A stretch of 32,258 nt of DNA from Candidatus Nealsoniibacteriota bacterium (GTDB taxonomy: Bacteria > Patescibacteriota > Minisyncoccia > Minisyncoccales > PWPS01): positions 1 to 32,258 of the forward strand of contig PWNV01000004.1 in assembly GCA_003557645.1 (NCBI GenBank). Direction: 5' to 3'. This document shows positions 3 to 3,031 of the stretch, one piece after another (the stretch's first letter is position 1; each line of letters opens with the position of its first letter). Below the pieces are notes generated by a model. The model was not told where the DNA came from, did not search any database, and saw only the letters and a list, made by a program, of their open reading frames with translations. The position numbers and the translations under genes are program-made.

Positions 3-422
3 GAAAGATTAGAGTATCATATAGGAACCCGGGCAAAAGCAAGGGCAGGATATCTACACGAACTAACTCCCAGCACCTACTTTGACATAGCATGGCAAAC
101 TCCCGTAAGAATCACCTACTTCTATTTCGCCCCCCTCCCATGGCAAGTGGAAACAAAAGAAGACGTTATGGGGGTAATAGACGCTTCACTTTACCTTATT
201 CTCATCATCTTCTCTGCTATTACTCTTAAAAAGCTAAAAAAGAAAGACAAAGCGCTCTTCATTTCATTGCTACTTATCCTCCTCGTCTTTTCCACCACCT
301 TCGCCTGGGGAACATCCAATTACGGAACATCTCTCCGTCACCGGCAAAAAATAGCCTTCGTCCTTATCATCACCGCTTCTTACTCTATCGCCGAAAGGAG
401 ATCTCTCAAAGAGGGGGCTTGA
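3..422 (+). CDS. C-terminal part of a polytopic membrane protein (5' end outside window)
   Basis: The frame is open from the left edge to a TGA at 420-422, giving 139 residues of a protein whose start lies outside the window. A GTG at 147 could be mistaken for a start, but coding-like sequence continues upstream of it. At least two and probably three hydrophobic segments are visible: around LYLILIIFSAITL, ALFISLLLILLVFSTTF and KIAFVLIITASYSIA. A motif SNYGTSLRHRQK precedes the last one. Similar N-GT-x-RHR endings occur in large membrane proteins linked to glycan or O-antigen type synthesis, but this is only a resemblance from memory and I do not assign a function. The stop codon sits inside the -35 box of the next gene's promoter, so spacing is extremely tight. 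Confidence 0.75.
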   Translation, partial: ERLEYHIGTRAKARAGYLHELTPSTYFDIAWQTPVRITYFYFAPLPWQVETKEDVMGVIDASLYLILIIFSAITLKKLKKKDKALFISLLLILLVFSTTFAWGTSNYGTSLRHRQKIAFVLIITASYSIAERRSLKEGA

Positions 423-447
423 CACATATTCATTATGAATATATACT
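419..447 (+). promoter_or_regulatory. Strong sigma-70-type promoter with a palindromic operator in the spacer
   Basis: TTGACA (419-424), a 17-nt spacer and TATACT (442-447) form a near-consensus promoter for the DUF5320 gene at 487. A perfect 17-bp palindrome, ATATTCAT-T-ATGAATAT at 426-442, fills the spacer. A direct repeat of TCATTAT (430-436 and 447-453) is spaced by 17 nt. The predicted transcription start is about 454, giving a leader of about 33 nt. Position between the boxes suggests repression by a dimeric regulator; its identity is not visible, though the DUF134 protein encoded downstream is one candidate. Confidence 0.8.
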
Positions 448-486
448 CATTATAGAAAGGTCGATTATAAACCAAAAAATAATACT

Positions 487-687: not shown

Positions 688-738
688 AAAGAAGGCACGG
701 GAGCCGGCCTCTTATAAAGGGGCCGCGTGACCTTCTTT
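688..738 (+). promoter_or_regulatory. Long hairpin between DUF5320 and DUF134 genes
   Basis: Right after the DUF5320 stop, AAAGAAGG-CACG (688-699) pairs with CGTG-A-CCTTCTTT (726-738), a 12-bp stem with one bulge. An inner stem GGCCTC (706-711) pairs with GGGGCC (719-724) with one G-U pair around a 7-nt loop. There is no long T tract after it, so it may be a weak terminator, an mRNA 3'-end stabiliser or an attenuator that sets the DUF5320:DUF134 ratio. Confidence 0.6.
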
Positions 739-1049: not shown

Positions 1050-1075
1050 CCGCCCCTAGAAAAGGGGCGGTTTTT
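1050..1075 (+). terminator. Rho-independent terminator, probably bidirectional
   Basis: CCGCCCC (1050-1056) pairs with GGGGCGG (1064-1070) around a 7-nt loop, followed by TTTTT (1071-1075). It ends the DUF5320-DUF134 unit. The convergent PKD gene stops at 1074, so the same stem can terminate it on the minus strand, where an A/T-rich tract follows. Confidence 0.92.
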
Positions 1076-2102
1076 AAAAGGGATCTACCTCTCTCCAGTC
1101 ATCGGGAAGTGGTGGCCTTACCGTAATAATCTCCGTATCAGTACAGCTTAACCCGTCTTTTGTAACGGTTAAAGTTACTTCTTTTGGCCCTTCTATCTCA
1201 AAAACTACACTCAGGCTCGCTTCCGAGCTTTCTTCCGGATCTCCTCCTTCAAACGTCCAGCTTCTAGTATCAAAATCGCCTCCACTATCAGAGAAGATAA
1301 CTTCTTTATCTACAATCGGCTTAGAAGGCTCCCAAGTAAAGCTTGAATCCGGGTACTCGGGGAGCGTTTCAAACGTAGTGCTTACCCAGTCCGACCATAA
1401 TCCATGGTCATTTCTTGACCTTATCTCCCAAACATAACTACTACTGTAATCAAGATTAGTGTAAACATACCCTCCTTCAGAACTGGTAGTAAACTCATCG
1501 GCATTTATCTTCATCTCAGATCTACTATATCCTCCTCCAAAATCTTCGTAATCCCAGTTAAGCGTTACTTGCGGAGTGATCTCACAGTAGTCCGGTGGGT
1601 GAGACACGTCTAAATTCGAGACCACCGGTTTTGGATATGGATAATATCCAGCCATATCCCAACTCATCCATCCTAAAAATCCATCTCCAAAAGAATATCC
1701 AGAGAGAGATCCTTCGTCATACAAAATTCCGTAACCCTCCCCGCTAAGAGATATCCACTCCTCAGGATCTAGTACTTTTGCCCATCCGGTTATCTCTCCT
1801 TCCTCCATGTCAAATCTCGGTACACACGGCACCTCAGGACAACCTCCTACATCAGTAAAACTAATCCACCCAAGAGCATCAGACCAAGCTTTTCCACTTA
1901 TATACCCCTCATCATCAATCTCAACTCCGTAGTTAGAGCCACAAAAACTAATCCACCCTACATTATCGGACCAAGCAAAACCAAAGATACTGTCTTCCGA
2001 GCAGTCCGTGTTAACACTACCCACTCTGTTAAAACTAAAAAGAAAAATCCCCATAAAGATTAAAAAAGAGAGGATTAAGATTTCAGTTTTTTTCAAAAAC
2101 AT
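1074..2102 (-). CDS. Secreted/anchored surface protein with GWISF repeats, Fn3-like and PKD domains
   Basis: A 342-residue protein starting at ATG 2102. An in-frame ATG at 2141 is possible, but it would overlap the upstream gene and lies before the likely promoter (2110-2137). Residues about 7-25 are a hydrophobic signal or anchor. Then come four W-rich repeats: GFAWSDNVGWISF (41-53), GKAWSDALGWISF (70-82), a WISL copy (106-119) and GWMSW (to 148). A fibronectin-III-like region spans about 159-250, and a PKD domain about 255-328 (SFTWEPSKP, then WTFEGGDPEES, then EVTLTVT). The tail is VRPPLPDDWREVDPF. GWISF repeats with PKD domains are common in Parcubacteria surface proteins of unknown role. 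The partial gene at 32137-32258 has almost the same tail, so these are paralogs. No LPXTG motif or lipobox is visible. Confidence 0.82.
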   Translation of the reverse strand: MFLKKTEILILSFLIFMGIFLFSFNRVGSVNTDCSEDSIFGFAWSDNVGWISFCGSNYGVEIDDEGYISGKAWSDALGWISFTDVGGCPEVPCVPRFDMEEGEITGWAKVLDPEEWISLSGEGYGILYDEGSLSGYSFGDGFLGWMSWDMAGYYPYPKPVVSNLDVSHPPDYCEITPQVTLNWDYEDFGGGYSRSEMKINADEFTTSSEGGYVYTNLDYSSSYVWEIRSRNDHGLWSDWVSTTFETLPEYPDSSFTWEPSKPIVDKEVIFSDSGGDFDTRSWTFEGGDPEESSEASLSVVFEIEGPKEVTLTVTKDGLSCTDTEIITVRPPLPDDWREVDPF

Positions 2103-2497: not shown

Positions 2498-3031
2498 CTA
2501 TGCGCTTGGAAGATTGGAAATGGCTTTCGAGAGAAACGGCCTCTTTCCCGCAAAGCGGTACTTTAAGAGACTAAGCACAGTGAGAACATCACCGACTTCT
2601 TCTCTTAGTGGCCCAGGACCAACAAAAACCTCACCTACTTCCTCAAGCAGTGTCCTCGCGTAATCGTTCATTATCTTCTCTCCGCCCTCCTTTTTTAAAT
2701 ACGTCATTATCTTTTTAAACTCCCCTCTATCAAGCCACACCCCCTGGCAAACGTTACAGACATCTACTTTTATTCCAGAATCACCATAATTTACTTCATA
2801 AAGCGGCATGATACAAGTCGGGCAGTGTTTCTTTTCTTTGGAAACACGAAAATCTTTCTCGTTTTTCCATAAATCAACATCCAGCCAATCCAACTTCTTT
2901 TCCTTCATATCTTTAGCTTGAAAAAACTCATCTTTTTCAAACCAAATACCCAAGCAAGTCGGGCAGTGATCAATCTCCGTGTTCTGAAAAACCGCCTTTT
3001 CTAATTTCTGCTCACAATTTGGACAATTCAT
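2498..3031 (-). CDS. Double zinc-ribbon protein (zf-TFIIB family)
   Basis: A 177-residue protein with two zf-TFIIB-like zinc ribbons. The first uses C3, C6, C23 and C26, followed by LGIWFEKDEF; the second uses C70, C73, C92 and C95, followed by QGVWLDRGEF. The C-x2-C...C-x2-C-x-G-x-W-x-(D/E)-x-x-E-(F/L) signature is diagnostic of this family. The C-terminal 70 residues (from about 108) lack cysteines and carry a moderately hydrophobic stretch near VGDVLTVLSLLKYRF. The start overlaps the htpX stop by 4 bp (ATGA), so the two are translationally coupled. The function of the family is not well defined; linkage to LemA and HtpX suggests a membrane-protein quality-control context. The stop codon touches tRNA-Ser. 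Confidence 0.88.
   Translation of the reverse strand: MNCPNCEQKLEKAVFQNTEIDHCPTCLGIWFEKDEFFQAKDMKEKKLDWLDVDLWKNEKDFRVSKEKKHCPTCIMPLYEVNYGDSGIKVDVCNVCQGVWLDRGEFKKIMTYLKKEGGEKIMNDYARTLLEEVGEVFVGPGPLREEVGDVLTVLSLLKYRFAGKRPFLSKAISNLPSA

Follow-up and report, generated by a model that had tools for sequence, protein, structure and literature searches.

A predicted DUF134 operator over the core promoter of a DUF5320-DUF134 operon in Patescibacteria, and a candidate one-residue specificity rule

A close described parallel to the locus reported here is provided by the autorepressing dimeric helix-turn-helix (HTH) repressors, in which the operon that encodes the regulator likewise has a palindromic operator over its promoter. 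The window (that is, the whole 32,258-nt stretch of DNA analysed) encodes a clear member of DUF134/UPF0251 (PF02001), a family predicted to bind DNA from its HTH, and the structure prediction gives, with high confidence (AF2 pLDDT 91), a small HTH protein with a long final helix beginning at residue 63. DUF134 differs from the autorepressing HTH repressors in being only ~92 aa long, with short conserved N- and C-terminal parts and no separate effector domain. The nearest solved folds are the DNA-binding domain of DeoR, the nearest solved HTH and one that the DUF134 HTH resembles, and sigma region 4, none with an E value below 0.001, and a sequence search of the PDB gave no match. Sigma-70 region 4 has the same HTH fold; however, DUF134 is a stand-alone protein that scores below the Sigma70_r4_2 cut-off (22.1 vs. 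25.7 bits) with region 2 absent and does not qualify as a sigma-70 factor, and it is read here as a probable dimer on a palindrome as opposed to a reader of the -35 box within a sigma factor.

In other genomes, DUF134 and DUF5320 recur in NifX/MRP-type clusters together with Nitro_FeMo-Co, NUBPL-type ATPase and ferredoxin genes. The window operon, in contrast, consists of DUF5320 and DUF134 only, as the original prediction, made from the window sequence, also had it: profile search found no adjacent Nitro_FeMo-Co or MRP-type ATPase gene that could serve as a cofactor-binding partner, and the surrounding window genes are unrelated. A search of open-access papers yielded almost no information about DUF134/UPF0251 or DUF5320, and neither an operator nor a target or mechanism of the DUF134 family; since the search covered open-access papers, the priority of a DUF134 operator is not proven. 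What is new for the family would be the predicted operator and the predicted specificity residue, an autorepressor being ordinary in kind.

The operon and its predicted operator

Both genes pass their Pfam cut-offs and lie, in the order originally proposed, downstream of one promoter on the plus strand. DUF5320 (487-687; 66 aa) matches PF17253 with 39.4 bits (cut-off 27), the match spanning only residues 1-29, and has an MPRFDGTGP-type motif at its N-terminus and a long, charged C-terminal part. DUF134 (769-1047; 92 aa) matches PF02001 with 67 bits (curated cut-off 27; E 2.2e-18) and is the single DUF134 of the 596-kb genome. A terminator-like hairpin with a T-run (CCGCCCC...GGGGCGG-TTTTT; 1050-1076, plus strand) ends the two-gene operon; the same inverted repeat is also listed for the minus strand. 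The sole recognisable promoter of the operon is formed by TTGACA (419-424), which is conserved upstream of DUF5320 in the family and shares bases with the TGA stop codon (420-422) that ends the preceding ORF, and TATACT (442-447), separated by a 17-nt spacer (425-441) and matching the consensus at 11 of 12 positions.

Centred on the -10 box is an imperfect 20-bp dyad, TTATGAATATATACTCATTA (433-452, plus strand; core ATGAATATATACTCAT at 435-450, centre 442/443). DUF5320-DUF134 is a recurrent pair at loci of the same family, with the same promoter in the form TTGACA-N8-TTATGRRTATATAYTYATAA. Among the 16 family genomes searched, the promoter-borne dyad before DUF5320 occurs once per genome where the stretch is assembled (in one genome of the same genus, G009, it is not), and other operator-like matches (up to 3 mismatches) lack TTGACA and mostly lie within coding sequence. 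A matrix built from many loci gives the site at 433 a score of 29.4, compared to 5.7 for the next best site of the window. As expected of an autorepressor, the operon encoding the regulator has a conserved, two-fold symmetric site over its core promoter. We consider it highly likely, judging from sequence comparison, that DUF134 represses the DUF5320-DUF134 operon by binding 433-452 as a dimer, and hence that it very probably switches its own two genes off.

The position of the dyad relative to the promoter differs among lineages. In 30 Patescibacteria loci, 8 nt separate TTGACA from the dyad, which thereby covers the -10 box; the gap is 18-21 nt in other loci (over +1), 0-2 nt in some (in the spacer) and 25-26 nt in Chloroflexi; in Clostridia, the dyad TTATTGACATATGTCAATAA includes the -35 box (read by eye), and in archaea it begins directly behind the TATA box. 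Since placement varies in this way, the dyad is best viewed as an operator, not a promoter element, and all positions observed would block initiation. These positions also bear on an alternative in which DUF134 acts at a genuine operator as an activator, e.g., by recruiting RNA polymerase in the manner of sigma region 4. Such a role would suit the similarity of both fold and profile to this sigma region and a site at the core promoter, but a dimer bound over the -10 box, +1 or the spacer would obstruct the polymerase, a near-consensus promoter (11/12) needs no help, and the archaeal site lies behind the TATA box; hence, we regard activation as improbable. From the comparisons described here and below we infer binding, dimerisation, and repression rather than activation.

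Less probable still is that the operator is the perfect 17-bp palindrome of the spacer, ATATTCAT-T-ATGAATAT (426-442, plus strand), as originally proposed. The coordinates then given for this palindrome, the two promoter boxes and the spacer are all correct, and its perfect symmetry, its single occurrence in the 596-kb genome and its overlap with the promoter are attractive features. However, the window contains one perfect palindrome with 8-bp arms where 1.3 are expected from dinucleotide shuffles, i.e., the palindrome by itself is at chance level, and the only other exact copy among the 16 same-family genomes lies within coding sequence. The left half of the dyad, which is offset from the palindrome by seven bases, is formed by the right arm of the palindrome, whose left arm, ATATTCAT, is conserved in no relative, the family alignment showing ..ATAGT/ATAAT at the orthologous promoters; scored in the register of the palindrome, the operator matrix falls below -14. 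A search of the orthologous promoters, the check suggested with the original prediction, found the palindrome absent, the outcome that the original prediction had named as refuting it, and the shifted dyad at 433-452 conserved instead. The left arm does correspond to an inverted half-site, so that this lineage might conceivably possess an extra, third half-site of its own. Accordingly, the original prediction is partly supported: a dimer site does appear to overlap the promoter, with DUF134 as its likely binder, and the kind of element and the likely protein were right, but the site was wrong, autoregulation being predicted to act through the conserved dyad and not through the spacer palindrome.

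Distribution of the dyad among DUF134 genes

The dyad consensus was originally derived from the window's own family. The dyad (up to 3 mismatches of 20) was found within about 570 nt upstream in 98 of 143 distinct DUF134 genes or operons, vs. 2/140 in downstream controls and 0/143 with the reversed consensus. The 143 loci include 80 from GTDB, representing Patescibacteria, Chloroflexi, Firmicutes, Acidobacteria, Verrucomicrobia and several archaeal phyla, and the dyad occurs in many Patescibacteria families (named records include Berkelbacteria and Curtissbacteria, with operator contexts that agree with those of the other genomes of the phylum), in Chloroflexi, in other bacteria and in archaea. 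In six further DUF134 loci, the dyad lies farther upstream in long operons; about 31% of the loci have no near operator, a few of these having a distant one. Within Patescibacteria alone, 49 of 73 loci carry the dyad in the 500 nt upstream (up to 3 mismatches), compared to 0.14% of shuffles. Further, a scan of 380 genomes of the phylum allowing at most one mismatch matched 20 genomes, 19 of which carry DUF134 (present in 66/380 overall); in the twentieth, the site is within coding sequence. Viral contigs and phages that were searched had essentially no DUF134.

In several loci (L041, L070, L082, L086, L186 and Dehalococcoidia), the dyad stands directly before DUF134 with no DUF5320 between. 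Since it immediately precedes DUF134 where DUF134 is first or alone, the dyad tracks DUF134, not DUF5320.

A few loci deserve separate mention. Locus L225 of genome G375 has two perfect DUF134-type operators, at 591-610 and 1949-1968; downstream of one lie a predicted permease with a weak match to ArsP_1 and a Nitro_FeMo-Co gene, and downstream of the other lie DUF5320, a membrane protein containing CPHC, and DUF134. A contig labelled as a Thermoplasmata archaeon (L158) carries a DUF134 operon resembling those of Patescibacteria together with a TTGACA promoter of bacterial type, and is probably misbinned. Finally, many Klebsiella/Citrobacter plasmids carry a DUF134-NifX pair beside a Dps family gene, with only a weak operator-like site in the two loci L244 and L245.

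Residue 63 and the operator half-site

Using a search consensus kept neutral at the tested positions, we found that DUF134 proteins with Gln63 have T:A at position 8 of the half-site in 75 of 77 cases and those with Arg63 have C:G in 25 of 27, with a mutual information of 0.80 bit between residue and base compared to 0.44 for the next column. Contacts of glutamine with adenine and of arginine with guanine are classical. Weaker links connect residues 64 and 67 with operator positions 6 and 10, and their order is compatible with a single helix lying in the groove. Genome G289 encodes two paralogues, one with Gln and one with Arg, and each follows an operator of the matching class. In the window protein, Gln63 is thus the predicted specificity residue. 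A residue of the recognition helix and an operator base therefore covary, as expected of an autorepressor, with independence on the tree being limited: on a poorly resolved DUF134 tree (91 columns), the residue changes 5 times and the base 6 times, giving 5 independent pairs that agree in nearly all samplings, and since just one of these lies on well-supported branches, the code rests partly on shared ancestry.

The rule was then fixed and applied to 12 new loci that had not been used to find it, drawn from class-mates of genome G322 and from plasmid records (Patescibacteria class-mates, Acetoanaerobium, Peptoclostridium, Pusillibacter, Subdoligranulum, Parabacteroides, Roseburia, Phocaeicola, Treponema and a Klebsiella plasmid). 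In 12/12, the higher score went to the operator class expected from residue 63, by a marginal difference in L238 and L243, with the Gln class represented by only one of the twelve. Upstream scores exceeded downstream controls throughout, and the best-scoring site was weak in L237 and L244.

Covariation with residue 63 also bears on the reading of the conserved stretch as a well-kept extended -10 promoter element instead of a protein operator. The dyad does coincide with the -10 box in most Patescibacteria, but an extended -10 element would account neither for its two-fold symmetry, nor for its occurrence once per genome, at the DUF134 locus, nor for its movement relative to TTGACA, its place behind the archaeal TATA box or its dependence on a DUF134 residue, and we consider this explanation very unlikely indeed. 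Equally unlikely, while formally possible, is that another regulator encoded in the genome binds the operator with DUF134 as a passenger target. None of the results favors this reading, and such a regulator would need to accompany DUF134 across archaea and numerous phyla of bacteria and to reproduce its Gln/Arg code.

Comparison across genomes, then, shows a conserved dyad that tracks DUF134, changes place with respect to the promoter and covaries with residue 63 of the protein, and repression by DUF134 bound at the dyad is the reading that we favor.

Proposed mechanism and accompanying elements

In the mechanism that we propose, two DUF134 monomers would bind the 20-bp dyad at 433-452 and cover the -10 box, the bound dimer would keep RNA polymerase off the promoter, and DUF5320-DUF134 would be held at a self-limited level. 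The recognition helix would begin at residue 63, with Gln63 reading T:A at half-site position 8 (ATGRR-T-A) and the Arg63 members of the family reading C:G at the same position. The window genome, with one DUF134 and one operator, would hold a single-site switch, and to this extent the earlier view of a self-contained switch is upheld. In other lineages, the genes behind the operator encode NifX/Nitro_FeMo-Co, MRP-type ATPase, ferredoxin and DsbD-like thiol-redox proteins, and partners found elsewhere include NUBPL-type ATPase and DUF364 (heavy-metal chelation), which suggests a role in metal-cofactor or thiol homeostasis. A DsbD-like/thioredoxin-like membrane protein with an FFYGEGCPHC-type motif adjoins DUF134 in several archaea and in Peribacteria (L120:2794-3903, L125, L132 and L226).

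It is tempting to speculate, albeit with considerable doubt, that DUF134 represents an old, cross-domain family of autorepressors in which a single residue determines the operator sequence recognised (ATGRRTA for Gln, ATGRRCA for Arg). On this view, the family would have persisted from archaea through Patescibacteria to Firmicutes and Bacteroidetes as its operator shifted in position along the promoter, and in Patescibacteria it would be reduced to a two-gene switch with the small DUF5320 protein as the sensing partner that releases the repressor. The operator and code predicted here would provide a widespread domain of unknown function with a DNA target, a probable role and a specificity rule based on one residue. 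They would allow DUF134 sites to be called in genomes of archaea and bacteria and would link DUF5320, along with NifX/MRP-type metal-cofactor genes, to one candidate regulator, and the tiny genomes of Patescibacteria, which have few understood regulators, would possess a complete one-site switch.

Two further elements accompany the operon. Between the two genes lies a two-tier RNA hairpin (688-738, plus strand; z -5.5, with 0/200 shuffles as stable) that is kept in most same-family genomes, with changes on both sides in 8 of its 16 pairs and a covarying inner stem; an Rfam search of the window returned only two tRNAs. The hairpin is probably an attenuator or an mRNA-processing/stability stem, and would probably lower DUF134 relative to DUF5320 or protect the first message. 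The second element, the leader AAAGGTCG (456-463, plus strand), lies near the predicted transcription start and is common to other genes of the family: the pattern AAAGGTCG(G)..TTATNAANCAA is found about 30-36 nt before the start codons of many family genes (in the window and L214-L224), with 246 matches in 16 genomes vs. 140 for the reversed control. We considered AAAGGTCG as part of the switch and rejected it, since it precedes many other genes, such as groES-, Hsp20-, pilin- and phage-like genes (identities by eye), at a near-constant distance from the start codon. It is probably a general leader element, possibly one for SD-less translation or for transcription start.

Elsewhere in the window, on the minus strand at 2498-3031, a protein with two Zn_ribbon_TFIIB motifs adjoins a protease-like membrane protein and a LemA-like gene.
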